Source: Thermincola carboxydiphila (GTDB lineage: Bacteria > Bacillota > Thermincolia > Thermincolales > UBA2595). From it: DNA of 64,000 nucleotides. This document shows positions 17,858-33,681 of this stretch, piece by piece; the stretch's first letter is position 1, and every line of letters begins with the position of its first letter. The notes below the pieces were generated by a model. The model had not been told where the DNA came from. It saw only the letters and a program-made list of their open reading frames with translations, and made no database searches. The position numbers and the translations under genes were made by a program. Location: positions 1 through 64,000 of the forward strand of contig JAENZJ010000014.1 of assembly GCA_016841325.1 (NCBI GenBank), in the 5' to 3' direction.

Positions 17858-18442
17858 ATGGAGAGATTCCGGGTAATTATAGCCGAAAGGGACAGCCAGG
17901 TCAGGAAAAAGTTGGCTGAGATTCTGAATCAGGCCGGTTATTTCGTGGTAGGTGAAGCCGAGGATGGCATGTCGGCACTGAAGATGATCAGGAGCATACA
18001 GCCCGATATGATTTTGGCAGCAGCAAACCTGCCGGTGTTGAACGGTTTTGAACTTGCCAGGATTCTGGATGAGGGAAGAGTCTGTGCAGCGGTCCTGATG
18101 CTTGATTATGCTGAAAATGAATTTACCGGCAGGGCAGGAGAAAACATCTCTTTTCCGGTCATATTTAAACCTGTGGACAGGTTTCAGCTTATACCTGTTA
18201 TGGAATATGCCTATGCATCATACCTAAGGGTGGCAGCACTAGAGCGTGAGGTAAACCAGTTGAAGCAGGACCTGGAGACGAGGAAGGTCGTTGCCAGGGC
18301 CAAGGGTATTCTGATGAAAACCCAGGGACTTTCTGAACAGGCTGCCTTCAGGAAGATACAGCAGCAGAGCATGAAAAAAAGAACCACCATGAAAAAGGTT
18401 GCCGAGGCTATTATTATGGCATATGAGTTATCCGGTAGCTAA
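17858..18442 (+). CDS. Second ANTAR protein with a degenerate receiver domain
   Basis: 194 residues, same architecture as the protein at 12931: receiver-like (1-120), coil (EREVNQLKQDLETRKVV) and ANTAR (RAKGILMKTQGLSEQAAFRKIQ). The phosphorylation site is Ala (position 55 in MILAAANLP) and the switch Thr is also lost (MLDYAE), while Lys104 is kept. Phosphorylation is excluded. Pairing with an HD-GYP gene suggests its RNA target may be in signalling or cytochrome transcripts, but none was identified. AAGGAG precedes ATG 17858. Its last five codons lie inside repeat copy A. Confidence 0.86.
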   Translation: MERFRVIIAERDSQVRKKLAEILNQAGYFVVGEAEDGMSALKMIRSIQPDMILAAANLPVLNGFELARILDEGRVCAAVLMLDYAENEFTGRAGENISFPVIFKPVDRFQLIPVMEYAYASYLRVAALEREVNQLKQDLETRKVVARAKGILMKTQGLSEQAAFRKIQQQSMKKRTTMKKVAEAIIMAYELSGS

Positions 18443-18560
18443 CCGCCGCTTAGACTCCCACCTCGTCAGATGGGAGATAAGCGCGCTAAGCTCCTGGATA
18501 ACGATTTCTAAGCGTCAGATGGAGTCCAAACTCCACCTGACGCCAAGAACTCTGTTGATC
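18428..18560 (+). repeat. Palindromic repeat, copy A (133 bp)
   Basis: A structured element present again in inverted orientation at 26910-27043 with about seven differences; the last 66 bases are identical. It folds into a branched hairpin: outer GTTATCC/GGATAAC, an arm with CTCCC..GGGAG inside CGCCGCTTA..TAAGCGCG, and a second arm with GCGTCAGATGGAGT pairing ACTCCACCTGACGC around CCAA. It begins inside the ANTAR gene, supplying its stop codon. It has no coding capacity and looks like a MITE or REP-type element. Confidence 0.8.
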
Positions 18561-18650
18561 AGAAGGTGACTGACGGTCAGGAAAAGTTAACCGGCGGCAG
18601 GAACAGGAAACTGAAAATAAGTTAAAAAAACTGAAAATAAATTTATATAA

Positions 18651-18686
18651 AAGACTAATACTACCCCGGTATTGGTCTTTTTTTTA
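18651..18686 (+). terminator. Intrinsic terminator after the ANTAR gene and repeat
   Basis: AAGACTAATAC (18651-18661) pairs with GTATTGGTCTT (18669-18679) with one wobble, followed by a run of T. Confidence 0.8.
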
Positions 18687-19068
18687 ATTTCTAGAACCTG
18701 ATAAGCAAAAAGCAACAAATATTTAACTGAGCATAAGAAGGTGTCGAATTGTACTACATTGATTAACAGCACCGGGGTGTAGTGTTTTAACGGTAAATGA
18801 ATGAAGGTCATTTTAACACGCCAAAACAAAAACCGACATTGACGGTTAAGGCTGGCATTAAATTTTGTCAAATCCGGGGGCAGTATACCGGTTTCATGTC
18901 AAAATGCAAATATCTGCAGAAGATTCTGAAGACAAATGTGTGCCAGTTTTTTGACGACTTCGACATTATAGGGGTGTTATACTTTGGGTTGAAAAATTAT
19001 TTGAAAATACTAATGGATTAAGTATTAATATTTAATGATAAAGTACTACCTATCAAAGCATTCCTAAT
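18687..19068 (+). promoter_or_regulatory. Regulatory region before the cytochrome block
   Basis: 382 bases without a gene. TTGAAA (19001-19006), 16 nt, TATTAA (19023-19028) is a possible promoter. Two Spo0A-box-like sites occur, TGTCGAA (18742-18748) and TTCGACA (18959-18965). No good sigma-H pair is present here. The rest is A/T-rich and shows nothing I can name. Confidence 0.4.
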
Positions 19069-20337
19069 GTGACCAAAAGGCTGTGTTGCCATATGCTGTA
19101 CAGAACCCTGGGAAATATTTTCAATAAATACTTAAGTGGACACCTTAGAGAACGCCTCACAGAACCATTCAGAGAACGCCTCAGGAAATATCTGAAAAGC
19201 AGAAGGGTCAGGCTTGCCGCAAGTATTACAGGTTTTCTCATAATCACCTTTTTGGGCGGACTTGAGCTGACGGGCCAGCCGGCAATATGTTCAATGTGCC
19301 ACATGATGAAGCCGGAATACTATACCTGGCAGTGGTCATCACACTCCGGTACAGGCTGCACCGGATGCCATGTCCCCCCCGGCCCTGCGGGTTTGCTGAA
19401 AAGCTACCCTGCCCGTGCCCGGAACCTTTACCTGATGCTTTCAGGGTCATATGTCTCACCGATTGTGAAGCTGAGCCCGATTCCTGACGGGGCATGTGAA
19501 CGCTGCCACAAATTAGCCCCGGATGAAAGTGGAGGACGCATCCTGGCCGCCCATGGTGTGCATAAAAAAATGGGGGTCAGCTGCATAAAATGCCATTCCG
19601 GAATTGCCCATGGCAGAATATCTGAACGCGGAATTACGTTTCCGAGTGATTACTCCAAATGGGATAGTGTATTGGCTGAATCCATGATGAGTGATAAGCA
19701 GTACACAACGCCTGATATGGATGCCTGTTTTCAGTGCCACCGGCTGCGTAAGGGACCACTGGAGTGCCGGGACTGCCACAGTTCTGTCAAGCCGGAGACA
19801 CACCTGAATGACGGATTTGTTGACTGGGGTCATGGCAAAATAGCTGCGGCTGAGCTGGCCTATTGTGATAATTGCCACCGGTATATGAGTACACAGAAGA
19901 CCATGGAAACCGGGCAGGAGCAAAAATACCTTCAGTACCTGAAACAGGGTGAAACCAGCCGGCAAAGTAATTTGGTGATACCCTACTCCAGGACGAATAC
20001 CTTCTGCAGGGACTGCCATGCCAGGAGGCCGGCAAGCCACAGCAAAAAAGAAAATATCGAGACTCACGGATCAAGGGCAGAGGCTGACCATAACAGGTGT
20101 ATGACATGCCATGACAACCAGTATCTCCCCGGAGCACCGGGTGAGCAGGGCGGGCAGGGGACGGCTGTTACGGAAGTTTTCTGTGCCCGGTGCCACCCCA
20201 GCTCACATCGCTATTCCCTGCAGTGGCAGAATGGCTACCACCCGACAGACCTGCCGGCAAAACCAAGCATAACCAAGTCCTGCTACACCTGCCACTCAGA
20301 GAAAATATGCGGCAGGTGCCATGGCAGTTTAACATAA
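19069..20337 (+). CDS. Membrane-anchored 12-heme cytochrome c (NapC/NrfH-like start)
   Basis: 422 residues. A basic N-terminal stretch is followed by one membrane helix (about 48-66) and then twelve CxxCH motifs. The first, CSMCHMM, lies just after the helix as in NapC/NrfH quinol dehydrogenases. The large heme domain faces outside. By family it would take electrons from menaquinol and pass them to the cytochromes encoded downstream. No strong ribosome site is visible at GTG 19069; ATG 19093 is an alternative. First gene of the electron-transfer block. Confidence 0.88.
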   Translation: MTKRLCCHMLYRTLGNIFNKYLSGHLRERLTEPFRERLRKYLKSRRVRLAASITGFLIITFLGGLELTGQPAICSMCHMMKPEYYTWQWSSHSGTGCTGCHVPPGPAGLLKSYPARARNLYLMLSGSYVSPIVKLSPIPDGACERCHKLAPDESGGRILAAHGVHKKMGVSCIKCHSGIAHGRISERGITFPSDYSKWDSVLAESMMSDKQYTTPDMDACFQCHRLRKGPLECRDCHSSVKPETHLNDGFVDWGHGKIAAAELAYCDNCHRYMSTQKTMETGQEQKYLQYLKQGETSRQSNLVIPYSRTNTFCRDCHARRPASHSKKENIETHGSRAEADHNRCMTCHDNQYLPGAPGEQGGQGTAVTEVFCARCHPSSHRYSLQWQNGYHPTDLPAKPSITKSCYTCHSEKICGRCHGSLT

Positions 20338-20364
20338 ACATCAATTTTTCAGGGAGGGGATAAA

Positions 20365-21045
20365 ATGTCGGTTACAAATCCCAGGTTGGAATTGAAGAGT
20401 GTTGTGGACAAGAGCAAAAATGACAGTTTTACCCTGCTCCAGGCAGTGGCCCTTATTCTGCTTACAGTCATTATAAGCTTTTCGGGGTGGTATGCCGCAG
20501 GCAAATATTTTTTCTGGAAGGACCTGGATGTGAAAAGGGTTGAGGCTCAGCTGGAGTTCCTCAAAAAAAGGGTGGATACTGAGCCCAGGAACCTGGAGAA
20601 CCGGGTTTCCCTGGCATATACGTATTTCCTGCTGGATGACAACGATCAGGCTGTTAACGAACTGAATCAGGTACTGGCTATAGACAAGAATTATTCTGCT
20701 GCTTATTACAACCTTGGGCTGGTCTACTATGATGAGGGCCGGAAGGATGACGCCCTGGAAATGTTTCAGAAGACAGTGGAATTGTCTCCCCGGGACCATA
20801 AGGGGCATCTTCAGAAAGGCATAATTTACCGTGACCTGAAGATGTATAAGGAAGCAGTGGAGTCCCTGGAGACAGCCAATAAGATCCTGCCAGGCAATGC
20901 CAATGTCATCTATGAGATAGGCAGGGTCGCCGAGGAACAGGGTAGTTATGATACGGCTGCCCAGATATATAAAGAGGCGTTAAGTTATGACCCGTTATAT
21001 AAGGATGCAGTTGAGGCACTTAAGCGTGTGGAGAGAAAACTATAG
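20365..21045 (+). CDS. Membrane-anchored TPR protein
   Basis: 226 residues: a single N-terminal helix (about 22-45) and then about five TPR units covering residues 65-222 (NLGLVYYDEGRKDDALEMF, YEIGRVAEEQGSYDTAAQIY). TPR proteins are scaffolds; here it probably helps assemble or hold the cytochromes outside the membrane. AGGGAGGGG lies before ATG 20365. It sits 27 bases after the 12-heme cytochrome and 21 before the NHL gene, so the three are co-transcribed. Confidence 0.85.
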   Translation: MSVTNPRLELKSVVDKSKNDSFTLLQAVALILLTVIISFSGWYAAGKYFFWKDLDVKRVEAQLEFLKKRVDTEPRNLENRVSLAYTYFLLDDNDQAVNELNQVLAIDKNYSAAYYNLGLVYYDEGRKDDALEMFQKTVELSPRDHKGHLQKGIIYRDLKMYKEAVESLETANKILPGNANVIYEIGRVAEEQGSYDTAAQIYKEALSYDPLYKDAVEALKRVERKL

Positions 21046-21066
21046 CAGCAAGGGGGCGGTTTAAAA

Positions 21067-22065
21067 GTGGGAGATGAAATAAAAGCCGGGAAGACAGTAA
21101 AGAAAAGACATGTCTATAATACCATGCTGATCATTTTTATCGGAATATCGGTCGCTTTTGGCTACATGTTTTATTCCCAGACCGAGATTATGGCTATTCC
21201 GGCCATGGTTGACCCTAACGGGCCTCCCAAGTTCAGCCGGATGATTTATGGGGGTTTTGACACTGAGGCCCTGGACAAGCCTATGGATGTATCGGTAATC
21301 GGCCAGTTTATCTATGTTACTGATACCAATAATCAAAGGGTCCAGGTATTTGACCTGGGGGGATCACCTGTATTCAAGTTCGGTGAACGGGGGGATAAGC
21401 CGGGGCAGTTTGAATTCCCTTATGGAATTGACGGGGACAGCCAGGGCAATGTTTATGTTGCCGACCTCTATAATGGCTGTGTTTCCGTCCATGATGCCAA
21501 AGGGAAATTCATCAGGTATTTTGCCGAAAAGGACCCCGGGGAAAAGACCATTGACACTCCGGGAGGGCTGCGGATAATTGACAACAAGGTTTATGTCACT
21601 GATATCAATCAAAGCAAAGTACTCGTTTTTGATATGGAGGGCAACAAGCTTCAGGAGATTGGCAAAATGGGACAAAACCCCGGGGAGTTCCGCGCCCCCA
21701 ATGCTGTGACTGTTGACGATGATGGCAACATATATGTTGTGGATTCGGGAAACCAGAGGGTCCAGGTATTTGACAGCGGCGGGAAGTTCCTGCGAATTAT
21801 CAACGGCTCACCTGGCGGGAAAGGCCCTTCTGTTTTTGTCAACCCCCGCGGGATAGGCTTGGATTCACGGGGAATAGTCTATGTAATCAGCAACCTTACC
21901 CATTACCTTTACGGTTTCGATAAGGAAGGGAACCAGGAGTTTGTCCTTGCCGGTTATGGCAGCGCTCCCGACCGGTTTATCCTGCCAAATGGACTGTACA
22001 TAACGGAAAATGACGAGATATATGTGACTGACACGGCCAATCAGAGGGTGGCGGTTTATCAGTAA
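21067..22065 (+). CDS. Membrane-anchored NHL-repeat beta-propeller
   Basis: 332 residues: an N-terminal helix (about 18-36) and a six-bladed NHL propeller. The repeats are easy to see: YVTDTNNQRVQVFD, YVADLYNGCVSVHD, YVTDINQSKVLVFD, YVVDSGNQRVQVFD, a weaker fifth, and YVTDTANQRVAVYQ. Such propellers are protein-binding surfaces and occur beside multiheme cytochromes in metal-reducing bacteria. The start is GTG 21067 after GGGGGC. No catalytic motif is visible. Confidence 0.88.
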   Translation: MGDEIKAGKTVKKRHVYNTMLIIFIGISVAFGYMFYSQTEIMAIPAMVDPNGPPKFSRMIYGGFDTEALDKPMDVSVIGQFIYVTDTNNQRVQVFDLGGSPVFKFGERGDKPGQFEFPYGIDGDSQGNVYVADLYNGCVSVHDAKGKFIRYFAEKDPGEKTIDTPGGLRIIDNKVYVTDINQSKVLVFDMEGNKLQEIGKMGQNPGEFRAPNAVTVDDDGNIYVVDSGNQRVQVFDSGGKFLRIINGSPGGKGPSVFVNPRGIGLDSRGIVYVISNLTHYLYGFDKEGNQEFVLAGYGSAPDRFILPNGLYITENDEIYVTDTANQRVAVYQ

Positions 22066-22186
22066 CCAGAAAAGGTAACCCCCGATAGTAACCTCCAGAC
22101 AGGCAAACCCACAGGGAAGGAGGTGCTGTGCGGACAGTTCCGGCTTTGCCTGGAGGATCTATAAAAAAAGAGAGGAGAAGGTAATC

Positions 22187-23845
22187 ATGCGAAGATTTAC
22201 TGTATTGCTGCTGACAGTGCTCCTGGTCCTGGCAGTCCCGGCTGTGGCTTTGGCAGCCTACACTGACGCCAACAGTCCGGCGCCAACCACACCGTATGCA
22301 CAGCCCTTTACGGCCCCGCTGACTGACGGGGATACTGAAGATAACTACCAGGGTAATGCCAACCGGACCGGTGGCGATACCAACAATGTTGACATTCAGG
22401 ATACGACTTCTACCATTGCAAGTCCAGATGTACAAAACATAATTAAATCCAAGAACATGTACATGAATGACGATTCCGGTCCCCGGACCCAGAGGACACA
22501 CGGTGAGTACCAGAACAATACCAACTCGTGTGCCAGCTGCCACCAGACCCACACCGGCGCTGCCAAGGACCTGTTATTCAAGGGCAGCAGTTCTGCCAAT
22601 GGTGTGTACAACACATGTACCGCGTGCCATGACGGTACTTTAGGCTTCTATAATGTGTTCACCCCTTCTACTGCCGGTACCTTTGGCGGTACTGACCAAG
22701 GTAATGCCTCTGTCCACCTGGCAACCGGAATGGCCAATATTTACATGGCTCCCGGTGCAGACGCCCAGTCCACCAATCAGATATGGAATGATGAGTTTGA
22801 CTGTGCTGCCTGCCATGCTCCCCATGGTTCCTACAGTGACAGGTTACTTCATTACAGTCCTGCCGGGATGGCCAATGTTCCTGTTGCAGACGGCGGGAAC
22901 AAGGTTGTTGGGGTGACTGTAGTAGATTCTGCCACTGTACCGGCAGCTGACGGTACCTCAGAGGATTATATACTTTGGCGGACAACAGCAGGGGCAGCCG
23001 GTATTGATGCTGCCACAGAGCCTGCTGATACCAACGTAATTGTTTTGATGAAGAAAGTTGAAACCACTACAGCACAATATGAGTACCAGCGTGAAACCAC
23101 CCCGTGGGTAGCCGGTTATGAGCATGCCATGGGTGACAACTACAATGTATTGGAAATGCTTTATTACACCAGGTTCTCTGACGGAGCAAATGATATTACC
23201 AATAATCTTGAGGTCATTTACGGCCTGGCCTATGCCAAGGGAGAACACATCGCCAGTGTTGTCACCGGAGATATAGCCCGTGCCTATGTTGTCGACCTGG
23301 GTGACATGGAAGACCTTGATGGTGACGGAACAGCTGAAACCGACATGGAACAGATTGTTCTCGGTTATTTCGGTGAAGTGCCTATTACTACCATTAATAC
23401 TGACATTTATGATGAAAAGGGTCACGGTAAATCTATCAGCAAGTACTGCGGCGCCTGCCACAGTCTGTATATGACCCATTCCAAGGATGCTGACGGTGAC
23501 GGTGTATTCCGCCACAGCACTGATACAGACCGGTTCAACTGCCTCAAGTGCCACTTTGCCCATGGTACTGATGTTACTGTAATGAAGGATGCCAATGATA
23601 ACACGGTTGCTGACTTACAAGCTGCAGGCATAACAAATGCCAGTGCTTATATGGTTGACAAGAATGCATCATCTGCCCTCAAGAGATATACCAACATGTC
23701 AGTATGCTGGAAGTGCCACAGTGGCGTAACAGGCAAGTCCAGTAAGCTGATGAACAACACCTATTACTGGGATAACTATGATACCAATCCTAAGGGTGGG
23801 GTCAATACTTCAGAACATAACTGGACCAATAATAATTGGGAATAA
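22187..23845 (+). CDS. Secreted six-heme cytochrome c
   Basis: 552 residues with a clear signal peptide (about 1-23, ending ALA). Six CxxCH motifs are split into two groups: three in residues 105-215 (CASCHQTH, CTACHDGT, CAACHAPH) and three near 415-525 (CGACH, CLKCHFAH, CWKCH). About 200 heme-free residues separate the groups, rich in acidic and Thr/Asn residues. The CxxCHxxH patterns recall doubled-CXXCH cytochromes of surface electron transfer. GGAGAAGG precedes ATG 22187; a 23900 terminator ends the unit. Confidence 0.9.
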   Translation: MRRFTVLLLTVLLVLAVPAVALAAYTDANSPAPTTPYAQPFTAPLTDGDTEDNYQGNANRTGGDTNNVDIQDTTSTIASPDVQNIIKSKNMYMNDDSGPRTQRTHGEYQNNTNSCASCHQTHTGAAKDLLFKGSSSANGVYNTCTACHDGTLGFYNVFTPSTAGTFGGTDQGNASVHLATGMANIYMAPGADAQSTNQIWNDEFDCAACHAPHGSYSDRLLHYSPAGMANVPVADGGNKVVGVTVVDSATVPAADGTSEDYILWRTTAGAAGIDAATEPADTNVIVLMKKVETTTAQYEYQRETTPWVAGYEHAMGDNYNVLEMLYYTRFSDGANDITNNLEVIYGLAYAKGEHIASVVTGDIARAYVVDLGDMEDLDGDGTAETDMEQIVLGYFGEVPITTINTDIYDEKGHGKSISKYCGACHSLYMTHSKDADGDGVFRHSTDTDRFNCLKCHFAHGTDVTVMKDANDNTVADLQAAGITNASAYMVDKNASSALKRYTNMSVCWKCHSGVTGKSSKLMNNTYYWDNYDTNPKGGVNTSEHNWTNNNWE

Positions 23846-23899
23846 AAAAATAAGCTGACAAAACAATGTGTCAGCCGTGAGGTGTGAATAACTTTTCCG

Positions 23900-23946
23900 G
23901 GCTGAGGTATTATGCCCCACATAATACCTCAGCCAACCCCTTTTTT
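23900..23946 (+). terminator. Strong intrinsic terminator inside the cytochrome block
   Basis: GGCTGAGGTATTATG (23900-23914) pairs perfectly with 23920-23934 around a 5-nt loop, and TTTTTT follows at 23941. A smaller hairpin (GCTGACA/TGTCAGC, 23854-23875) precedes it. Confidence 0.88.
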
Positions 23947-24030
23947 AATATATCTCTAACTTTTAATTTTATTTTATATGGCTGTTTTTGTCAACGAATG
24001 GTATGTAAAGGGCAGGGGAGGAGGACTTTT

Positions 24031-25938
24031 ATGGAGCAGTGGAGATATTTCCAACAAAAAATGACCATATGGGGTTTTGTTTTTGCCATATGCCTGCTCT
24101 TTATCGTCCATCCTGCTCCTGTATTCAAAAAGTTTTTGCACCTGATAACCCCTGATATCGTTTTGGCTGCTTTACCTCCGGCAATAACTGTTACCTCTCC
24201 GGCTGACGGGCTGGCCACCAATAATCCGGCTGTGGAGGTAACGGGTATTACTGAGCCCAGCGTTTCGGTAGCGGTTTACCTTAATGAGTCCCTGCAGGGC
24301 AGTACCCTGTCAGATACTGCCGGGGAGTGGAGCATGCCCCTGGGCCCGCTGCCTGAGGGTACCCACACAGTTTATGCAGTGGCTGCCGATACCGAAGGGA
24401 ACAGCAGCACATCAGACCCGGTAAAATTTGAGGTGGATACCACACCCCCTGAAATTATGATTACCGGTCCGCCTGACGGAGGTTATACCAACCGCCCGGT
24501 TATTGAGGGACAGACTGATCCGGACATAACTGTTACGGTATATGTTTATGGGGGCGGCAGCGGAACGGTGATGTCAGATGCGTCCGGCCAGTGGTTTTAC
24601 CTTGACGGAAATCTTCAGGAGGGCAGTTACAGCGCCTATGCCGCAGCCACTGACAGGGCCGGCAATACCACTACATCGGGGACAGTTTCATTTATCCTGG
24701 ACATGAGCCGTCCCGTGGTCATTCCTGATATCTATCCGGCAGAGGATATGACAGGAGTCTCCCCTGACGTGGTCACCAGGGTCTATGTGATAGACAACTC
24801 ACCACTGGATCCGGTAACCCTGGATTCAGCCCTTAAGCTTTTTGAGAAAAACTGGACCGGCGGGTCAGATAACGTCTCCGGCACTGTTTACAGCGCCGTA
24901 TATGCTACTGTATACGGGGACCCCTATTATGAGATTAGCTTTAAGCCGGATACACCTCTTAAAGCCGGAGTGAAGTATTCTGCATCAGTTAACCCCGTCC
25001 TCTCAGATGCAGCAGGCAACTATATCTATCCAAGGACATGGTCCTTTACAACCGGGGGGGCAGGGGCAGCAGAAAACCCTCACGGCAATTACCTGGGCAA
25101 TGTCAATGCCTGTGCCAACTGCCATGCCCCGCACCGGGCGGGGGCGGCCCGGCTTGTGGAACCGCGTGACACCAGATATACAGATGTTGATGATTATTGT
25201 AATGCATGCCATGACGGTACGGCTGCCCCGGTTCCTTACAATTGGCAGAGTCAGTACAGGCATGATTTCCAGGTGAGTATCGCAGGGGTTACGGGAATCA
25301 GTTCATGTACTGCGTGTCATACCCCGCACGTGCCCAGGACTGAGGAAAACCCCAACCTGCTGCAGGACTATTATTACTTTGACCATAACGACCCCACAAA
25401 CCCATTTTTTCCTGACAGCAGTGAACAGGAGATGTGTGAATTATGCCATCCGGGGACCATTGTGCAAGACCCCAGGGTCCAGTATATAAGATACAGGTAT
25501 GACAAGTGGCACACTTCTACAGGCGCCCCTTCAGATTACAGCCTGTGCCTGCGCTGTCATGACGGGAGTAATGCCTTTAATATCGCCTCATATTACAATG
25601 GGCCTTCCCGCCATTCCCTAAAGGCTGCAGACGGCAGCTATCTGGACGGGGGACTGCCGTGTTCTGACTGCCATAACACACATGGGTCCCAAAACCTAAA
25701 AATGCTTAAAGAGGAGCTGGGACATAACCGGACACAGCTGTTCCGGACAGAAAGCAGTATCTGGGATGCTGCCACTGAACGCAGGTTTTGTACTTCCTGC
25801 CATAACAATATTACCGAATTATACGGGATAACAGCAGGCTTTGTGTATGCGGTTCCCGGCCACGAAGAATCCAGTACCGAACCCTGCAGCAGCTGCCATG
25901 GGGGTACGCCTGCAGCTGCGGCTCATGCACCGCAGTAG
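24031..25938 (+). CDS. Secreted Ig-domain cytochrome c with eight hemes
   Basis: 635 residues from ATG 24031, chosen because GGGGAGGAGG precedes it and an upstream terminator covers the earlier part of the frame. After a signal or anchor helix (about 13-33) come two bacterial Ig-like domains (ITVTSPADG.., IMITGPPDG..) and a third of SbsA/Big_5 type (about 230-350, ending RTWSFTTGG). Eight CxxCH motifs follow, several as CxxCHxxH or CHDG. The protein is probably displayed on the cell wall, with the Ig domains as spacers. Lacks a sortase signal. Confidence 0.9.
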   Translation: MEQWRYFQQKMTIWGFVFAICLLFIVHPAPVFKKFLHLITPDIVLAALPPAITVTSPADGLATNNPAVEVTGITEPSVSVAVYLNESLQGSTLSDTAGEWSMPLGPLPEGTHTVYAVAADTEGNSSTSDPVKFEVDTTPPEIMITGPPDGGYTNRPVIEGQTDPDITVTVYVYGGGSGTVMSDASGQWFYLDGNLQEGSYSAYAAATDRAGNTTTSGTVSFILDMSRPVVIPDIYPAEDMTGVSPDVVTRVYVIDNSPLDPVTLDSALKLFEKNWTGGSDNVSGTVYSAVYATVYGDPYYEISFKPDTPLKAGVKYSASVNPVLSDAAGNYIYPRTWSFTTGGAGAAENPHGNYLGNVNACANCHAPHRAGAARLVEPRDTRYTDVDDYCNACHDGTAAPVPYNWQSQYRHDFQVSIAGVTGISSCTACHTPHVPRTEENPNLLQDYYYFDHNDPTNPFFPDSSEQEMCELCHPGTIVQDPRVQYIRYRYDKWHTSTGAPSDYSLCLRCHDGSNAFNIASYYNGPSRHSLKAADGSYLDGGLPCSDCHNTHGSQNLKMLKEELGHNRTQLFRTESSIWDAATERRFCTSCHNNITELYGITAGFVYAVPGHEESSTEPCSSCHGGTPAAAAHAPQ

Positions 25939-26003
25939 TTTAAAGGCCCCGGGAAGGGGAGGAGACATTCAGACAGGGATGGGATGGAGATGAATGGAGA
26001 TAA

Positions 26004-26723
26004 ATGGAGATGAAATGGAGGGCGGTGGCAGCTTTTATAACTGGTACCATTGTAGTCACTGCAGCCTGCCGGGTTCCGGCAGTAAAGCCTGACGTGACAG
26101 GTCAACAGATTGTTAACAGGAGCCAGCAAAATGCGGTTTTGCCTGATTTGGGACAAAGGGATGAAAAGGAGCTGGCAGTTCCCGAAAATCCCCTACTGAA
26201 GTCAACGGCAGGGACCCGTGTAAGGCAGTTTACCATTGAGGAACAGGTAGCCAGGATTCACTCCCAAAAGCAGCAGGTCTCCCGGAATCCGGGACCCGGA
26301 ACCAGGGTAATGAGGTCCTGGCCTGTTCCTGCGGGTGATTACAGGATAACCGGATACTTTGATGAGAAAAGGGAGGCCGGGATGCATAAGGGAGTTGATA
26401 TTGCGGTGCCTTTAGGCACCCCTGTGCTGGCTGCTTTTCCGGGCAGGGCTTTTAGAGGAGATGACGGTGAAAAGACCGGTTTGGGAAGGTATGTTTATAT
26501 TGAACATTCCAATGAAATGACAACCTATTACGGGCACCTCAGTGACTGGGCGCTGCCGGCAGAAGGGCTTACGGTTTCCGCCGGGAGCGTTATTGGCTGG
26601 TCCGGTAACACAGGCAATAGTACCGGGCCGCACCTCCACTTTGAAATGCGGAAGGAGGGTGACGGGTATATCAATCCCCTGGAAATATTGTCTTATCCGG
26701 AGGTGATTTCACAAGGGGATTGA
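26004..26723 (+). CDS. M23 family peptidase, probable lipoprotein
   Basis: About 239 residues. The N-terminus has a hydrophobic segment ending VTAAC, which may be a lipobox. The M23 domain (about 110-230) has the zinc ligands in HKGVDIA and HLHFEMR plus YYGHLSD. M23 enzymes cut peptidoglycan crosslinks; here it may open the wall for cytochrome export. The start is ambiguous (ATG 26004 or 26010), because an imperfect 10-bp tandem repeat, (g/a)aatggagat, runs from 25983 to 26020 and offers several ATG and GGAG sites. Confidence 0.87.
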   Translation: MEMKWRAVAAFITGTIVVTAACRVPAVKPDVTGQQIVNRSQQNAVLPDLGQRDEKELAVPENPLLKSTAGTRVRQFTIEEQVARIHSQKQQVSRNPGPGTRVMRSWPVPAGDYRITGYFDEKREAGMHKGVDIAVPLGTPVLAAFPGRAFRGDDGEKTGLGRYVYIEHSNEMTTYYGHLSDWALPAEGLTVSAGSVIGWSGNTGNSTGPHLHFEMRKEGDGYINPLEILSYPEVISQGD

Positions 26724-26909
26724 AACCGCAATAACCGCAATCAGGCAATGACATCTATAACCAAATTCAGGCATTTTTTTCTATGACAATCAATAATATT
26801 ATGAGTAGTAACATTAATATTTAGAGTAATAACATTTCAGCTGCTATCCTCGAGTCCAGCCCTGCTTAGTTCCCGTGCAGGAGGGGAAGTCCAGGCGGCG
26901 GCCGGCTGG
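26724..26909 (+). other. Gene-free region with possible RNA structure
   Basis: The first half is A/T-rich. The second half becomes G/C-rich, and CCAGCC near 26853 can pair with GGCTGG at 26904-26909, with CTGC/GCAG inside. I cannot match it to a known RNA class. With repeat B it fills the 394-base gap before the next gene. Confidence 0.3.
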
Positions 26910-27043
26910 GATCAACAGAGTTCTTGGCGTCAGGTGGAGTTTGGACTCCATCTGACGCTTAGAAATCGTTATCCAGAAGCTTAGCGCCGCTTATCTCCCA
27001 CCTAACGAGGGGGGAGTCTTAGCGGCGGTTAGCTATCGGATAA
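26910..27043 (-). repeat. Palindromic repeat, copy B (134 bp, inverted)
   Basis: Reverse-complement copy of 18428-18560, about 95% identical. One difference is an added G that completes CGCCGCT..AGCGGCG in the first arm; others fall in the loop and arms of the first hairpin. The second hairpin is identical in both copies. The boundaries are sharp: sequence outside TTATCCG and TTGATC does not match. Confidence 0.8.
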
Positions 27044-27117
27044 AAAACTTTTGGAAGGGAGGGTGTTTTGTTTGACTTCTGAGTTGCGCAGGCGAACCAG
27101 AATGAGGAGGGTAGAAT

Positions 27118-30100
27118 ATGAATAATATCAAGGAAAAAGAGGGGGTGTCCAGGACATGCGGGACAGGCTGGCTGAAGTCTGCGGCAATTATTTTACTGGT
27201 ACTGGCTGCCCTGACGGGGGGAGTTTATGGTATCAAACAAGTAAATGCTGTGGAAAATCAGGTTACAGCCCTGTCAGTGACTCCAGATCCCATTAAGCTG
27301 GGTTCTCCTGCATATGTCCGGTACACCCTGGGACAGAGTGCTGCGGTTTACCTGAATGTATACAGTGAGGACGGGGAGCTTGTCAGGGAACTGCTGAAGG
27401 GGGTAACCAAGTCTGCCGGGTCTTATGTCCAGGCGTGGGATGGCAAGGACCAGAACGGTGCGCCGGTACCTGACGGAAATTACAGGTTTACGGCAGAAGC
27501 CAGGGATGCCACAGATGCTGTGATTGGATTTATGGAATTTACTGCTCTGGCTGCCAGGCAGCCGGTTATAAGTTCTGTGACCGACACTCCTGACCCCTTT
27601 GACCCGGCAGCAGGGCAGCAGGTAGATATCACCTATACCATATCAGCAGATGCCAGGGTGACGATAAAGGTCCTTAATGGGTATGTCCCGGTTAAGACCC
27701 TTATTGACGGTGAAACCAAAACAGCCGGGACTTACACCATCAGCTGGGATGGTACAAATGATGCCGGCCAGACGTGGGGAGATGCTGTCTACACCTACCA
27801 GATTGATGCGGTCAATCCATTAGTATCAGCCTTTAAGAGTACTTTTAAGGGGTATACCACCCTGGAAGGTGCTGTGCCGGGGATCAGCGATTTTTCGGCA
27901 TATCCCAACCCCCTGAAGATTGGTACAACCAGTATGACTATCAGGTATACACTCAGTGAGAAAGCCAAAGTGACCCTAAAGATTTTTGATAATAACGGAA
28001 CAGCAGTGAGGACACTTCTGAACAATACAGCCAAAAACGCCGGGTATAACACTGTTGTCTGGGATGGGAAAACGGATACGGGGTCATACGTCCCTGAGGG
28101 CGATTATTCTGTGGTGATAAGTGCTGTTGATAATTATGACAAGCCTTCGGATGTACAGACGATACCCTTCACGGCCGGATATCAGCCGGTTATAAGCGGT
28201 GCCGCCATTAGTCCCAACCCTTATAATCCGGGGGACGTGGAGAATCCTGAAGCCACCATAAGCTACAACCTTTCTCATGATTCTATGGTCAATGTGAAAA
28301 TCCTCAACGGCTATACTGTTGTCAGGACAGTTTACGGTCCTGAACTGCAGCCGGCCGGAACCAACACTGTCCGGTGGGACGGCAGGGATGATGCCGGGAA
28401 TACTGTGGGGGACGGCTCCTATAGTTTCCAGGTAACAGCTGTTAGTCCTGCTGTAAGCACATTTTCCTCCACCTTTAAGGACAGCTTTGCCGTTGAAAAG
28501 GGTGCGCCTGCGGTCACTGACCTGACCCTGACCCCTAACCCCTTTAAGCTGGGCAGCGGTACCCTCTACATCAGGTATAACCTGTCTGAGCCTGCAGCAG
28601 TCACTATTAACGTGATGAAGGATGGTGAACCCGTCAGAAATCTGGCCTCGGGAGTAAGTAAGAATGCCGGGTACAACACAGCCACCTGGGACGGTAGAGA
28701 CAGTGACGGGAATCTTGTCGGTGAAGGGGTTTATTCCATTAAGGTTATGGCTGAAGACAGTGCTCAGAGGTCCGGTGAAGCTGTCGGTGATGTTACTGCA
28801 GGTTACCTGGCAGCAATCAGCAATGTGAGTGCTGATCCAGAAACCTTTGCTCCCACACCAGACGGCATTGCCGGGACCACCATTGGTTTTGACCTCTCAG
28901 CCGGGGCCAATGTTAAAGTAATCATTTTAAACGGCTCTGTGCCTGTGAAGACTATTGCAGCAGGAAACCTTGATGCAGGTTCACAGAGTGTTACCTGGAA
29001 CGGTCTTAGTGACAGCGGGAATCCGGTGTCTGACGGGACCTATACATTTACCATTGAGGCCTCAAGCCCGACAGTGCCCACGTTTGTCAGCCGCTCCCAG
29101 GGGACCGTTACCGTGGAATCAGGACCGCCCACACTGACCGGCCTTACTGTGAGTCCTTATGTGGTCAGAATAGGTTCACCCGCTTATTTCCGGTATACCC
29201 TGAGTGAGCCGGCAGATGTTACGGCACAGATACTTAACAAAAGTGGGGATGTGGTCCGTGATTTTGCGGCTGAGAGCAAAACAGCCGGAGGCTATTATAC
29301 AATCAACTGGGATACCGGGAATAACGGTGATAATCCGGTACCTTCCGGAGACTATATCTTTAAAATCTCTGCGATAGATAACTCAGGAGGGGCCGGTTCC
29401 GCCGAGCTTGCCTTCCAGGCAGGGGCAGTTCCGGTGTTTACCAGTGTTTATGCAGAGCCCCAGGTTTTCAATGCAGCTGACGGGGAGCAGACGACCCTGT
29501 ACTATACCTTGTCCGAACCTTCATATGTAACGGTTAAGGTAATTAATTCCACCGGGACTGTTGTCAGGACCCTGTGCGCGTACAAAGAAGTTGCCTCAGG
29601 GCTGAACACAATTGCCTGGGACGGCGCCAGCAATACGGGACAGGTGACAGATGGGAATTACACCTTTACCATTGATGCCAGCTCCGTTATTGGCAATTTC
29701 AAGGCCGTCCAGGCATCAGGGACAGTGCAGGTTAGTGCAGGCTCGGGTACACTGCCGCCACCGGCAAGCTGTACTGACTGCCATGCCGGTTATCCCACAA
29801 GCCACCCTGTAAATAATTGTGCCGGGTGTCATGGCAATAATGAGCCCATTCAGGACTGTGCTTCCTGTCATAATAACTGGGGAGCCCACAGCAATGGGTC
29901 GTTCCTCTCTACCTATAAGTGTGAATACTGCCATAATGACACCTACAGCTACAAGATACCTTCTCACCCGGCTGATATAGACGGGATCCATGAAGCGGGC
30001 CTGGCCGCTGACTGTCAGAAATGCCACCAGAGCTCACTCAGTGTGGAGCACCCGCTGCATACAGACGAGTCAGGTGTTGCGCATGACTGCAGGACCTGCC

Positions 30101-30789
30101 ATGCCAGCACCGTGTCAGAGGTAGTCTATGCAATTGATAACAGCCTGAAGAACTGTGATGCCTGTCATACCCAGTCAGGTCACCAGGCACAGCATACCAC
30201 GACTGCTCTTGACAGCAACTGTACCACATGCCACATAAACAGCCTAACAGATGAACACCTGAATAATCCCAAGACCCAGACAGATTCGGCTACCGGGCAG
30301 CTTAAACCATGGGACTGCAACACATGTCATGCCAGTACCAGGGCCACGGTTGTGGGAGCAGTATATACAGCTAACAGGCAGTGTGCTGCCTGCCACCAGG
30401 CAGGGCATAATATGAACTTTGCCGAGCCTGTTCCGGAAAATATACCCAAGTATGCCGGGTTTAACTGGACAGCTCCGCAGAATGCCTTCCTGTGGAGTGG
30501 CGAGTCATGGATGCCTGATGAGTTTCTGGTGGGAGGCAGGGTTATCATCTCCAGCCGCAGGATAGATGTCACCGGAGACCAGGTATGGGCCTTCTACCGG
30601 GATGAAATGGCAGCCCGGGGATGGACCCTGGCGTCAGAAGCGCCGCCTGCAGGCGCGGATTTCTTTACTGCGACCTTTGCCGGCGCCAATAATCATAAAG
30701 CAATGATCTGGTTCTACGGCGGCCTGACCCATAACCCTTCTGATGAGGTCCTGCCTGCGGGTTACCGGATCGAGGTAATTTACAAATGA
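27118..30789 (+). CDS. Giant surface cytochrome: eight FlgD-like Ig domains plus ten hemes
   Basis: 1223 residues. An N-terminal helix (about 19-40) is followed by eight FlgD-type Ig domains (about 48-880), each with a W(D/N)G turn. They alternate in two subtypes, giving four copies of a two-domain unit of about 205 residues; the even ones end in STFKG-like tails. Ten CxxCH motifs follow (about 890-1100), then a C-terminal domain of about 115 residues shared with the next gene (SWMPDE, VWAFYRDEMAARGW). The Ig stalk probably pushes the hemes through the thick wall. GAGGAGGG precedes ATG 27118. Confidence 0.9.
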   Translation: MNNIKEKEGVSRTCGTGWLKSAAIILLVLAALTGGVYGIKQVNAVENQVTALSVTPDPIKLGSPAYVRYTLGQSAAVYLNVYSEDGELVRELLKGVTKSAGSYVQAWDGKDQNGAPVPDGNYRFTAEARDATDAVIGFMEFTALAARQPVISSVTDTPDPFDPAAGQQVDITYTISADARVTIKVLNGYVPVKTLIDGETKTAGTYTISWDGTNDAGQTWGDAVYTYQIDAVNPLVSAFKSTFKGYTTLEGAVPGISDFSAYPNPLKIGTTSMTIRYTLSEKAKVTLKIFDNNGTAVRTLLNNTAKNAGYNTVVWDGKTDTGSYVPEGDYSVVISAVDNYDKPSDVQTIPFTAGYQPVISGAAISPNPYNPGDVENPEATISYNLSHDSMVNVKILNGYTVVRTVYGPELQPAGTNTVRWDGRDDAGNTVGDGSYSFQVTAVSPAVSTFSSTFKDSFAVEKGAPAVTDLTLTPNPFKLGSGTLYIRYNLSEPAAVTINVMKDGEPVRNLASGVSKNAGYNTATWDGRDSDGNLVGEGVYSIKVMAEDSAQRSGEAVGDVTAGYLAAISNVSADPETFAPTPDGIAGTTIGFDLSAGANVKVIILNGSVPVKTIAAGNLDAGSQSVTWNGLSDSGNPVSDGTYTFTIEASSPTVPTFVSRSQGTVTVESGPPTLTGLTVSPYVVRIGSPAYFRYTLSEPADVTAQILNKSGDVVRDFAAESKTAGGYYTINWDTGNNGDNPVPSGDYIFKISAIDNSGGAGSAELAFQAGAVPVFTSVYAEPQVFNAADGEQTTLYYTLSEPSYVTVKVINSTGTVVRTLCAYKEVASGLNTIAWDGASNTGQVTDGNYTFTIDASSVIGNFKAVQASGTVQVSAGSGTLPPPASCTDCHAGYPTSHPVNNCAGCHGNNEPIQDCASCHNNWGAHSNGSFLSTYKCEYCHNDTYSYKIPSHPADIDGIHEAGLAADCQKCHQSSLSVEHPLHTDESGVAHDCRTCHASTVSEVVYAIDNSLKNCDACHTQSGHQAQHTTTALDSNCTTCHINSLTDEHLNNPKTQTDSATGQLKPWDCNTCHASTRATVVGAVYTANRQCAACHQAGHNMNFAEPVPENIPKYAGFNWTAPQNAFLWSGESWMPDEFLVGGRVIISSRRIDVTGDQVWAFYRDEMAARGWTLASEAPPAGADFFTATFAGANNHKAMIWFYGGLTHNPSDEVLPAGYRIEVIYK

Positions 30790-32366
30790 AGCCGGGCATA
30801 TTATTCCTTATCCTCTGTGTCAGTGTCTTCATAATATTCGCGGTAAGCAACGGCGTAAGCGCTGAAATGAGCAATTCACTGCAGAACGACGGCTGTGTAA
30901 CCTGTCACCTGAATTATCCGGGGGTTCCACTGTACAGTACCACATGGGATATTAAACACAAATTTGATGTCTGTGATAACTGCCACACAACCTATGTGGC
31001 CAACTGGATGTGGAACTGCCGCTATTGTCACCTGACGGTTTATAACGGGAATTCAGGCTTTAGGAGTTATTCAGGCCCGCTGAGCGGAGGTCCCCCGGGA
31101 AGCGGGGAGTTCATGAACGACCATAGCTGGACGGGTGTGGATGCAGATTTTGCTTATCACAACAGCACAATGGGCGCTAAGCATTCATCGGGTTTTCCGG
31201 CTGCGGATTGCATCGATTGCCACCAGGACAGCCTGACACTGGAACATGAAGGCCGGACTATTGAATTATCCGGTGCAGCCGAGGATTTTGAAGATGATTC
31301 TCTTGCATTAGAGTTTTCAGGAGACTGGGCCAGGACAAATACCGTCTATCATAACGGGACATATGGATATAAGAGTAAAACCATCACCCATAACCAGTCA
31401 TCAGCATTTCAGGTGACAGTAAGTCTGACTGAAGAGGGGAACATCTCTTTCTGGTACAAGGTCAGCAGTGAAGGTGGCTATGACTTCTTAAAGTTTTTTA
31501 TAGATGGTACCGAGAAGCTTAAGGAGTCAGGAATGGCTGACTGGAAACAGGTGTCTTACCCCCTTGCTGCAGGCAGTCATACCCTGAAATGGGCTTATTC
31601 AAAGGATGGCAGTGTGTCTTCATATCAGGACAGTGCATATATTGATGACCTTGTCATTGGCGGTATTACCGGGTCGGCGGTCCCGAGCTATCCGGTTGAC
31701 TGCAACACCTGTCATTTAAGCTCTGACGCTGCGGTTAAAAGCGCCATCACAAATCATAATACAGACTGTTCAGCCTGCCATTTACAGGCTGACCATGACT
31801 CTGTTCATATTTCGGCTTTGAATGAAAGCTGTCTTTCAGCATCATGCCACACAGCATATCTCAATACTGACCACACAGCAAGGAATATTGGCTGCGGGGT
31901 GTGTCATAACAGCAGTGACCCCCGGGTCCTGACTGCCATTGATAATAAGGACAAATACTGTGGCAGCTGCCACTTCGCGGCACACAATTTTTACCTTGTC
32001 CCGGTGGTTGAAGAAATACCCCTTTATCCCGGGTTTGACTGGAGCAGTCCTATGTTCCTGAGCATTTGGCAGGGGGAGCCGTGGATGCCGGACGAACCGG
32101 GCAGTGGAGGATATATCATCCTCTCGGACCACCGTAGTGATATAACTGCAGATATGGTGTGGAATTTCTACAGTACCGAGATGGCTTCCCGGGGTTGGGT
32201 TCTTGATTCTGCAGAGCCACTGCCGGGAGCGGCTGACTTTGAAGTGAGTTTCTTGGGACCGGAAGGTAACTGTATTATTAAATTTAGCAGCTCAGGAGAA
32301 CATATCACAGGTATGTCTTCTGATACCGGGTCCAGTATAGAAATAATTTATTACAGTGGAGGATAA
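30786..32366 (+). CDS. Secreted multiheme cytochrome with jelly-roll insert and shared C-terminal domain
   Basis: 526 residues with a signal peptide (about 1-27). Four CxxCH motifs, a jelly-roll-like insert (about 165-295; FWYKVSSEGGYDFLKFFIDG, AYIDDLVIGG), then four more CxxCH. One further motif is CLSASCH, a CX4CH that may bind a ninth heme. The last 115 residues (PWMPDE, VWNFYSTEMASRGW, ADFEVSF) match the end of the previous protein. ATG 30786 overlaps the upstream stop by 4 bases, so the two are coupled and probably form one complex. The insert resembles carbohydrate-binding folds. Confidence 0.88.
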   Translation: MKPGILFLILCVSVFIIFAVSNGVSAEMSNSLQNDGCVTCHLNYPGVPLYSTTWDIKHKFDVCDNCHTTYVANWMWNCRYCHLTVYNGNSGFRSYSGPLSGGPPGSGEFMNDHSWTGVDADFAYHNSTMGAKHSSGFPAADCIDCHQDSLTLEHEGRTIELSGAAEDFEDDSLALEFSGDWARTNTVYHNGTYGYKSKTITHNQSSAFQVTVSLTEEGNISFWYKVSSEGGYDFLKFFIDGTEKLKESGMADWKQVSYPLAAGSHTLKWAYSKDGSVSSYQDSAYIDDLVIGGITGSAVPSYPVDCNTCHLSSDAAVKSAITNHNTDCSACHLQADHDSVHISALNESCLSASCHTAYLNTDHTARNIGCGVCHNSSDPRVLTAIDNKDKYCGSCHFAAHNFYLVPVVEEIPLYPGFDWSSPMFLSIWQGEPWMPDEPGSGGYIILSDHRSDITADMVWNFYSTEMASRGWVLDSAEPLPGAADFEVSFLGPEGNCIIKFSSSGEHITGMSSDTGSSIEIIYYSGG

Positions 32367-32368
32367 AG

Positions 32369-32476
32369 ATGGAGCTGGTCATAGTATTGGGGGCAGCGGG
32401 ATTGCTGGTCTTGGCCCTGGGTTTATGCCAATTGGCTTTTGCCTTGCACTGGACATCAAAATACGGGGAAGACTGA
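32369..32476 (+). CDS. 35-residue single-helix membrane peptide
   Basis: ATG 32369 has AGTGGAGG 6 bases upstream and starts 2 bases after the cytochrome stop. The peptide has one hydrophobic helix (about residues 3-27) and a short polar end (HWTSKYGED). Its position as last gene of the cytochrome operon suggests a small accessory subunit for membrane anchoring or assembly. It is too short for family assignment, but the ribosome site and placement are convincing. Confidence 0.65.
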   Translation: MELVIVLGAAGLLVLALGLCQLAFALHWTSKYGED

Positions 32477-32696: not shown

Positions 32697-33251
32697 ATGC
32701 TGAATGAAACAGAGCTGATACTTAGGCTGATGAGCGGAGAGGAATCCGCATCCCGGGAACTTGTCTCCTATTTCGGTGACAGGCTGCTGCGGTCGGCTTA
32801 CGGGATAACCGGTGACCTGCAGATTGCCGAGGAAGTGGTTCAGGATACCTTCCTTAAGGCGAGCCGCGGGCTGAATTCCTTCAAAGGCAATTCATCACTG
32901 GAGACCTGGATGTTCCGCATTATGGTCAATACAGCCAAGAACAGGATGCGCAGCAACTGGATAAGACGTGTTATAAGTATTGACCATGGGCAGGCATCCT
33001 GTATCCCTGCTCCCGAGGGCTCTGACCCGGAGCATGAACTACTGCAGCGGGAACGGAGGCAGGAAGTTATCCGGTGCCTCAGGGAACTACCAGTTAAATA
33101 CCGTGAGGTTATGGTGCTTTATTACCTTGAGGATTTAAGTGTCCGGCAAATCAGCCAGGTCCTGGGGCAGCCTTCCGGGACAGTGAAGAGCCGGCTGTTA
33201 CGGGGCAGGGACAGGATGAAACAGGCTTTGGAAGGTCGGGAGGTCTATTAA
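32697..33251 (+). CDS. ECF RNA polymerase sigma factor
   Basis: 184 residues: sigma-2 (about 25-95; AEEVVQDTFLKASRGLNSFKG, LETWMFRIMVNTAKN) and sigma-4 (about 120-175; LPVKYREVMVLYYLEDLSVRQISQVLGQPSGTVKSRL). It directs RNA polymerase to a few envelope or stress promoters. GGGAGGG lies 9 bases before ATG 32697. It forms a tight unit with the next two genes, and its place just after the cytochrome block makes that block a possible target. Confidence 0.93.
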   Translation: MLNETELILRLMSGEESASRELVSYFGDRLLRSAYGITGDLQIAEEVVQDTFLKASRGLNSFKGNSSLETWMFRIMVNTAKNRMRSNWIRRVISIDHGQASCIPAPEGSDPEHELLQRERRQEVIRCLRELPVKYREVMVLYYLEDLSVRQISQVLGQPSGTVKSRLLRGRDRMKQALEGREVY

Positions 33252-33252
33252 T

Positions 33253-33678
33253 ATGAGTAAGATGACAAAAAAGGCCGGTAGCAGCAGATATTTTGATAAA
33301 GATATCAGAAAATATTCTGATGAAGATATCAGCAGGTATATAAAAGAAGGTATGCAGGGTTTAAACCTCTCAGCAGCCCGGAAGCACGTCCTCCGGCAGG
33401 AAGTCTGTTTTGAAGCAGCCAGGTGCCGTGACGGTATTGCCAGGCGTATTTTAAGAAGGGTAAATGTTTTTATGGAAACAACCTTTGAAATATCCCTGGC
33501 GCCTGTAGTGACAGCACTGGGGGTACTGATGGTGGGAGTCACCGCTTTAGGCTACGGGTATTTTATGTTACCTTCCGAAACACATCCGGGGAATCCGGCA
33601 GGATATATTCAGCAGACATCTATAAATCCCGATGGAAGCACCCGTATTATGTTCATACCGGCAGACAGGAGGGGTTGA
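33253..33678 (+). CDS. Probable anti-sigma factor (single-pass membrane protein)
   Basis: 141 residues with a charged cytoplasmic part (1-72), one membrane helix (about 78-102) and a short outside tail. It starts 1 base after the sigma factor stop, the usual place for an anti-sigma factor. No zinc-binding HxxxCxxC motif is present, so if it is one it belongs to a non-ZAS class. The assignment rests on position and topology only. Confidence 0.6.
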   Translation: MSKMTKKAGSSRYFDKDIRKYSDEDISRYIKEGMQGLNLSAARKHVLRQEVCFEAARCRDGIARRILRRVNVFMETTFEISLAPVVTALGVLMVGVTALGYGYFMLPSETHPGNPAGYIQQTSINPDGSTRIMFIPADRRG

Positions 33679-33681
33679 GAT

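Follow-up and report, generated by a model that had tools for sequence, protein, structure and literature searches.

The window analysed here, i.e. the whole stretch of 64,000 nucleotides of Thermincola carboxydiphila DNA (contig JAENZJ010000014.1), contains one operon (19069-32366) in which five c-type cytochrome genes are accompanied by genes for a TPR protein, an NHL protein and an M23 enzyme. The operon and its flanking features are as follows:

17858-18442, forward strand, ANTAR-like regulator gene upstream of the operon, named from sequence reading and conservation
19069-20337, forward strand, membrane-anchored 12-heme NapC/NirT/NrfH-type cytochrome (12 CxxCH, PF03264)
20365-21045, forward strand, membrane-anchored TPR protein, module partner (TPR families in Pfam; hydrophobic segment aa 22-40)
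21067-22065, forward strand, membrane-anchored NHL beta-propeller, module partner (NHL E 3e-29; hydrophobic segment aa 19-37)
22187-23845, forward strand, OmcS/CwcA-type hexaheme cytochrome (6 CxxCH, invariant His, profile matches)
24031-25938, forward strand, Ig-bearing octaheme cytochrome (8 CxxCH, three Ig-like stretches in Pfam; reading frame open from 23884, start probably 24031)
26004-26723, forward strand, M23 peptidoglycan endopeptidase (PF01551, E 4.2e-27; histidine motifs HKGVD and HLH)
27118-30789, forward strand, decaheme cytochrome bearing a tandem array of eight FlgD-type Ig domains (8 FlgD_ig stretches in Pfam) and an unnamed C-terminal domain
30786-32366, forward strand, last octaheme cytochrome, 526 aa (8 CxxCH and one CX4CH)
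32369-32476, forward strand, 35-aa single-helix microprotein, MELVIVLGAAGLLVLALGLCQLAFALHWTSKYGED, directly 3' of the last cytochrome and conserved in L042
32493-32508, forward strand, intrinsic terminator-like hairpin with a T-run (scan and sequence), the probable operon end

Motif counts gave 12, 6, 8, 10 and 8 CxxCH in the five genes (the first octaheme being counted over 23884-25938), 44 in total, as the first-pass annotation had proposed; residue-shuffled versions of the cytochromes contained a mean of 0.006-0.086 such motifs and a maximum of 2, and none occurred in any other listed non-overlapping open reading frame of at least 70 aa in the window. The TPR, NHL and wall hydrolase genes placed between the cytochromes were likewise confirmed by Pfam. 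The further claim that the series ends in very large Ig-bearing secreted forms does not hold for the last protein, which is only 526 aa long and has a weak Ig assignment (Big_3_5, E 0.0034, below cut-off). This last octaheme, retained in the nearest relative, is 38% identical to the decaheme C-terminus over 237 aa (E 1e-44), and its CX4CH (CLSASCH at aa 349; CLSTSCH in the nearest relative) aligns to a canonical CxxCH of the decaheme, making 45 hemes possible. The end of the region as first annotated, 32476, is the stop of the 35-aa reading frame, which was not mentioned there.

In several relatives the module is preceded by a homologue of the ANTAR-like gene, and the product of the window gene is a candidate for regulating the operon. 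Geobacter is known to have GEMM riboswitches; an Rfam search here gave zero matches at gathering level, and weak matches to mir-593 (caused by a palindromic repeat) and HOTTIP_2 were taken as chance. A regulatory RNA for the operon was rejected as the main reading of the intergenic hairpin at 26910-27043, which is one of many genome-wide copies; that another copy is missing from the 12-heme leader of a relative was also counted against it.

The 12-heme protein has a hydrophobic segment at aa 49 and an N-terminal NapC/NirT domain (PF03264, E 4.8e-13), aa 52-181 being NrfH-like, though under the curated cut-off. Its first heme motif, CSMCHMM, is of the form CxxCHxM, with the Met retained in 52 of 54 relatives. 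The N-terminal membrane anchor, the domain and the CxxCHxM motif are common to quinol dehydrogenases of the NrfH/NapC/CymA type, although those enzymes have four or five hemes and this protein twelve CxxCH. The domain and the heme 1 motif support the first reading of a quinol-oxidase-like start, and the protein is a candidate menaquinol dehydrogenase; the first reading that the series includes secreted cytochromes is supported as well. An NrfH-like start would also suit a reductase located in or close to the wall and acting on soluble acceptors (nitrogen, sulfur or metal oxyanions) rather than on solids, and OcwA, the Thermincola surface reductase, does reduce shuttles and oxyanions (PMC7911101). 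However, the CxxCK catalytic-type motif was not flagged in the operon cytochromes and their domain matches are of c7 and paired-CxxCH electron-transfer types, and we consider such a reductase hardly credible.

The six-heme protein carries a signal peptide, six CxxCH and six further histidines (H105, H122, H177, H213, H443 and H459) that are invariant in 60 sequences; all six have counterparts in the short CwcA-like hexahemes and are the putative distal ligands of hemes that would all be bis-His. A single-sequence search against solved structures gave zero matches, and profiles were needed. With these, the best solved-structure match of the long hexahemes was OmcS (6EF8, E 1.7e-5; E 1.2e-4 with a profile from 13 sequences). 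Long and short CwcA-like hexahemes matched each other at 100% probability (E 3.6e-43), and the short-form profile matched OmcS 6EF8 at E 2.4e-21, with hemes 1-5 in order. A top match to 6R2Q in one hexaheme profile search was dropped as not collinear and reflecting generic paired-CxxCH similarity. The heme 1 CxxCHxxH aligns to OmcS residues 9-16 (CASCHQTH against CEGCHTMH); residue 16 of OmcS we take to be the His, three residues after the heme 1 CxxCH, that is supplied to the neighbouring subunit. On these alignments the six-heme protein is a distant homologue of OmcS and CwcA with the same heme order. In OmcS one heme is common to adjacent subunits, and the OmcZ authors note that fold searches give no OmcS/OmcE relatives beyond close homologues (PMC9473688). 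AlphaFold models of the heme-free hexaheme monomer were weak (pLDDT 46 and 64.8), and Foldseek searches with them returned no OmcS match, only unspecific ones. Hemes 3 and 4 are separated by a beta-rich insert of ~140 aa, which was modelled with high confidence and might hinder packing.

The most constant partners of the hexaheme are the TPR and NHL proteins, which strengthens the scaffold role first proposed for them; the NHL protein also matches the DUF5128 six-bladed propeller in Pfam. Of 69 related loci, 61 have the TPR, NHL and hexaheme genes side by side, Desulfosporosinus and complete Neobacillus chromosomes being among their hosts, and a 12-heme gene stands before the three in 52. Distances of NHL and hexaheme co-vary (Mantel r 0.91), as do those of TPR, NHL and hexaheme (r 0.87-0.95). 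The module of 12-heme NapC/NrfH-type, TPR, NHL, six-heme and Ig-octaheme proteins is old. Contamination is an unlikely source of the Bacillaceae matches, four of the loci being on 5-6 Mb chromosomes that are titled complete. Not every member of the genus has the operon, since neither a window-type hexaheme nor a full-length Ig-decaheme was seen in a same-genus genome (G002, 99% complete). Neobacillus was unmentioned in the open-access literature searched on multiheme cytochromes, which weakly hints that the distribution of the module is unreported, and the Neobacillus, Mesobacillus and Bacillus species that carry it are not known as electricity producers.

The outer components are less constant. 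Translation of the Ig-octaheme probably starts at 24031 rather than 23884, a strong Shine-Dalgarno sequence (GGAGGAGG) lying just before the former; Ig-bearing octahemes recur in the module, downstream of the hexaheme in Bacillaceae. The M23 gene occupies the equivalent place in three other genomes (G001, G003 and G009). The decaheme has orthologues in six relatives, and full-length eight-Ig forms were found in the Thermincola group only; it is an add-on of this group to the module, and its C-terminal part is matched at several other places in the genome. Its eight FlgD-Ig domains, ~103-105 aa each, lie between an N-terminal hydrophobic segment and the hemes, and its length is 1205-1283 aa in the four fully read loci, features that, together with the recurrence of Ig-bearing octahemes, suit the model first put forward, a fixed 44-heme chain with Ig-bearing cytochromes spanning the wall as stalks. 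Most related loci, however, are without the decaheme, and a polymer-type hexaheme is encoded in the same operon. Moreover, as the Ig domains are without hemes, a stalk can set hemes on the outside, yet is itself unable to carry electrons through a wall 20-80 nm thick. We therefore regard the fixed chain as improbable, although a stalk role for the Ig proteins as such is plausible.

We favour, with somewhat better than even confidence, an extracellular electron transfer operon that is a paralogue of the ImdcA-CwcA locus and encodes a polymerising hexaheme wire; that the hexaheme polymerises, where the proteins are located and which way the electrons run are all inferred. The 12-heme membrane protein would accept electrons from menaquinol, and the hexaheme would stack head to tail into a wire across the wall, with His122 of one subunit completing a heme of the next as in OmcS. 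The role of the membrane-anchored TPR protein and NHL propeller may lie in assembling the hexaheme, guiding it or docking it to the membrane, whilst the M23 enzyme would locally loosen the wall. The Ig-octaheme, Ig-decaheme and last octaheme would serve as outer terminals distributing electrons to minerals, electrodes or partner cells; within the decaheme, the array of eight Ig domains would act as a spacer (about 30 nm if extended, from Ig size). The likely wall-crossing part, judged by homology, is the six-heme protein and not an Ig stalk. This alters the first reading, in which the hexaheme was one link and the Ig proteins the answer to distance: given an OmcS/CwcA-type hexaheme and the end-to-end stacking proposed for CwcA, gene order is not electron order, and if the hexaheme polymerises 44 is not the heme count of the conduit.

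The same proteins could form a relay without a wire, the hexahemes being separate molecules, diffusing or seated in the wall, with electrons hopping between different secreted cytochromes. Several different cytochromes are indeed co-encoded, the polymer is a putative one, and the insert could bind the wall or a partner instead of building a filament. Nevertheless, the position of the OmcS inter-subunit His is invariant in the 60 hexaheme sequences, and it is the hexaheme, not the outer cytochromes, that is retained in nearly every module; we consider the relay unlikely, if worth keeping in mind. Multiheme chains are reversible in principle and nothing in the sequence fixes the direction of electrons, so these parts could instead supply the quinone pool with electrons taken up from minerals, metal, electrodes or partner cells. 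The Thermincola publications concern export (PMC7911101; PMC6703420), and we judge uptake very improbable.

It is possible, though we hold this only tentatively, that the module is a shared Gram-positive machine in which a quinol-oxidising 12-heme anchor and a TPR and NHL-propeller pair assemble an OmcS-family polymer through peptidoglycan, with exchangeable Ig-bearing outer terminals, in hosts ranging from Clostridia-type iron reducers to Neobacillus, Mesobacillus and Bacillus. For electron passage through the 20-80 nm wall of Gram-positive bacteria, CwcA has been the single modelled candidate, and it can now be placed in a wider family whose partner genes are constant; wire assembly thereby becomes testable, and Neobacillus and Bacillus hosts may be easier to culture and engineer for this purpose.

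Amongst known systems, the closest comparison is the Thermincola pathway ImdcA-PdcA-CwcA-OcwA, for which a route from menaquinol to the outside has been proposed and in which CwcA, never obtained in folded form, was modelled on OmcS as a stack of 4-16 molecules embedded in the wall (PMC7911101). Kinship with this pathway is supported: CwcA (Tfer_0075/TherJR_1122) is an OmcS-like hexaheme of the same genus with a membrane NapC/NrfH-type cytochrome upstream, as in the window operon. The genome holds four hexaheme loci like that of the window, one of which (C23) is ordered 10-heme, 12-heme, 17-heme, TPR, NHL, 6-heme, as expected of ImdcA to CwcA, and shares the TPR-NHL-6-heme set. From this gene order we infer that CwcA's place as the short hexaheme of the ImdcA locus is taken by the C23 protein and not by the window hexaheme. 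The window protein is longer, belongs to another branch and has the insert missing in CwcA-like proteins; its quinol-side partner has 12 hemes against 10, the M23 enzyme and Ig cytochromes are additions, and no OcwA was recognised in the operon, as judged without sequence comparison. The nanowire protein OmcS of Geobacter sulfurreducens (6EF8, 6NEF) agrees in its six hemes, their order, the six further His and the heme 1 CxxCHxxH, but identity is very low, the insert and a merely putative polymer state set the hexaheme apart, and its host is Gram-positive, without an outer membrane. The function of Geobacter cytochrome filaments is itself disputed (PMC11077965). No porin family was found by Pfam among the operon proteins, leaving the operon without the outer-membrane beta-barrel of porin-cytochrome (Mtr/Pcc) systems. 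Carboxydothermus ferrireducens, a Gram-positive Fe(III) reducer, also secretes multiheme cytochromes, OmhA/SmhA-C; the account of them describes no association with porin or pilin assemblies and leaves NHL, tetratricopeptide and OmcS unmentioned (PMC7829351). An NHL gene next to omcS in Geobacter was not confirmed, GSU2505 being listed as hypothetical only. NHL proteins do lie beside surface cytochromes in Desulfovibrio ferrophilus and Geoalkalibacter, the Geoalkalibacter locus also encoding a homologue of OmcE (PMC9769857, PMC12016550); these organisms are Gram-negative and the NHL protein is reported there as a neighbour, whereas here TPR, NHL and hexaheme form a conserved unit.

The window holds five multiheme cytochrome genes, all plus-strand, whose CxxCH motifs number 12, 6, 8, 10 and 8, as the first-pass annotation had counted; CxxCH is absent from all other listed non-overlapping ORFs of at least 70 aa in the 64 kb, and residue-shuffled cytochromes contained 0.006-0.086 motifs per protein (maximum 2). 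Its total of 44 hemes stands as a CxxCH count, although an extra CX4CH in the last cytochrome, placed where its paralogue carries CxxCH and present in the nearest relative too, makes 45 possible. Gaps along the operon are 27, 21, 121, 185, 65, 394 and -4 bases, taking the Ig-octaheme to start at 24031, which is probable given the GGAGGAGG site upstream of it. A repeat lies in the 394-base gap before the Ig-decaheme, where a second promoter is also possible; the operon may therefore give one or two transcripts. We consider it very likely that the operon serves extracellular electron transfer. The elements around it are:

17858-18442, ANTAR-like regulator gene, upstream of the operon
18428-18560 (plus strand) and 26910-27043 (minus strand), two copies, 95% identical, of a MITE- or REP-like 133-bp palindromic repeat
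18649-18690, terminator-like hairpin of 14 pairs, 3' of the ANTAR-like gene, conserved in a relative
32369-32476, conserved single-helix microprotein of 35 aa, directly 3' of the last cytochrome gene, also in locus L042
32493-32508, terminator-like hairpin, 3' of the operon
32697-35976, immediately 3' of the operon and conserved in the nearest relative, G001: genes for a sigma-factor-like protein, a short anti-sigma-like membrane protein and a large TPR protein

The ANTAR-like gene and 14-pair hairpin form a possible antitermination switch, and ANTAR-like homologues also precede the module in other genomes, Chloroflexi included. The downstream sigma-factor-like, anti-sigma-like and TPR genes could control or accompany the operon. 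The stop of the microprotein is the end, 32476, that the first-pass annotation had assigned to the cluster. The palindromic repeat has nine copies at 87% identity or above in this genome and a diverged copy on contig C23 (84829-84947), between 10-heme and 12-heme genes; the leader in the nearest relative lacks it. Two similar glutamine-synthetase-like genes (13533-14864 and 37154-38500, opposite strands), recognised from translated N-termini, flank the region.

The best solved-structure match of a 60-sequence profile of the hexaheme (22187-23845) was OmcS (E 1.7e-5). A set of short hexahemes, two of them encoded in this genome, matched OmcS in a single collinear stretch (E 2.4e-21), and the profiles of the long (window-type) and short types matched each other with 100% probability (E 3.6e-43). 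The six CxxCH motifs and six further histidines of the long family are all invariant, and have counterparts in the short type. OmcS residue 16, which we take to be the ligand coordinating a heme across the subunit boundary, aligns with the hexaheme histidine three residues past the first CxxCH. In OmcS the coordination of one heme crosses that boundary (PMC9473688; PMC12954529). What sets the window hexaheme apart from short hexahemes and OmcS is a beta-rich insertion that separates hemes 3 and 4; its model reached pLDDT 86-98 over about aa 221-310, whereas the heme parts were modelled poorly, and a second model gave a comparable picture. We are confident that the hexaheme belongs to the OmcS/CwcA kind; that it polymerises through the wall we infer with somewhat better than even expectation.

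The Thermincola protein CwcA (Tfer_0075/TherJR_1122) has six hemes and has been modelled on OmcS (18% identity); the proposal is a wall-spanning stack of 4-16 molecules that receives electrons from ImdcA and PdcA and passes them to OcwA (PMC7911101; PMC7096707). Contig C23 reads 10-heme, 12-heme, 17-heme, TPR, NHL, 6-heme, 14-heme, 24-heme; this order matches the published tag numbers (0070, ImdcA, 10 hemes; 0075, CwcA, 6 hemes), so its hexaheme is probably CwcA. Electron flow is most likely outward, as judged from published work on the genus rather than from sequence.

Amongst 73 named loci gathered by the hexaheme profile, irrespective of neighbouring genes, 69 contain the hexaheme; NHL adjoins it in 65 of these, the order TPR-NHL-hexaheme occurs in 61, and a 12-heme gene precedes this trio in 52. 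Four loci of the window's genome (window, C9, C40, C23) have NHL beside the hexaheme and TPR next. The 12-heme protein had been assigned to the NapC/NrfH type, in keeping with an NrfH-like CxxCHxM retained in 52 of 54 relatives. Pairwise distances of the TPR, NHL and hexaheme core correlate (r 0.87-0.95, 67 triads; maximum 0.29 in 999 permutations), part of which is accounted for by species history. The paralogues on C9, C23 and C40 broadly co-vary as well, with identities to the window of 50, 36 and 25% (NHL) and 60, 31 and 32% (hexaheme core). Constancy and co-variation give an even chance to a role of TPR and NHL in assembling or docking the hexaheme; that the M23 enzyme (26004-26723) opens the wall for it is a more tentative proposal, since M23 is found in just some relatives. 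On C40 (loci L010, 8991-19901, and L011, 1-4696) the hexaheme locus reads TPR, NHL, 6-heme, NHL, 806-aa 6-heme; 3' of it lies a cytochrome with roughly 42 CxxCH in some 3056 aa.

The Ig-decaheme (27118-30789) carries eight FlgD-type Ig domains (period 103-105 aa) between an N-terminal hydrophobic segment and its ten CxxCH, bearing out the eight-Ig, ten-heme description made from sequence. Orthologues occur in G001, G003 and G006-G009; none of such length was found in G002. Its C-terminal cytochrome and unnamed domain (about 120 aa) match eight places in the window's genome, itself and the adjacent octaheme included, so that a single terminal type sits on different fronts. Candidate roles for the array are outward heme spacing, wall-polymer binding or partner holding.

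Comparison with Thermincola and other Firmicute clusters, as first proposed, finds the entire operon in G001, in the same order and at 71-92% identity, and the module in Bacillaceae, where most loci have an Ig-bearing octaheme 3' of the hexaheme (Ig domains verified in three loci). In a tree of NHL and hexaheme core the window sits in a six-member clade (type A, support 0.989), separate from a seven-member type B clade (0.997); 36 Bacillaceae-type sequences and two of one Bacillales bin form one clade (0.995) placed beside Desulfosporosinus and type A. The simplest reading of this tree would be a single transfer between Clostridia-type and Bacillaceae ancestors. Several of the Bacillaceae loci lie on complete chromosomes. 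Amongst Bacillaceae loci such as L066, L074, L075 and L099, the order 10-heme, 12-heme, TPR, NHL, hexaheme, Ig-octaheme occurs on complete chromosomes of Neobacillus, for which we know of no link to extracellular respiration. Chloroflexi contigs (L114, L115, L117) carry TPR, NHL and a short-type hexaheme of 310-345 aa near an ANTAR-like gene. We found no prior report of the Bacillaceae occurrence in the open-access papers searched. The kind itself is known from CwcA and OmcS; what varies here is the hexaheme, long and with an insert, a quinol side of 12 hemes, TPR and NHL as a constant pair, Ig terminals, and the presence in Bacillaceae.
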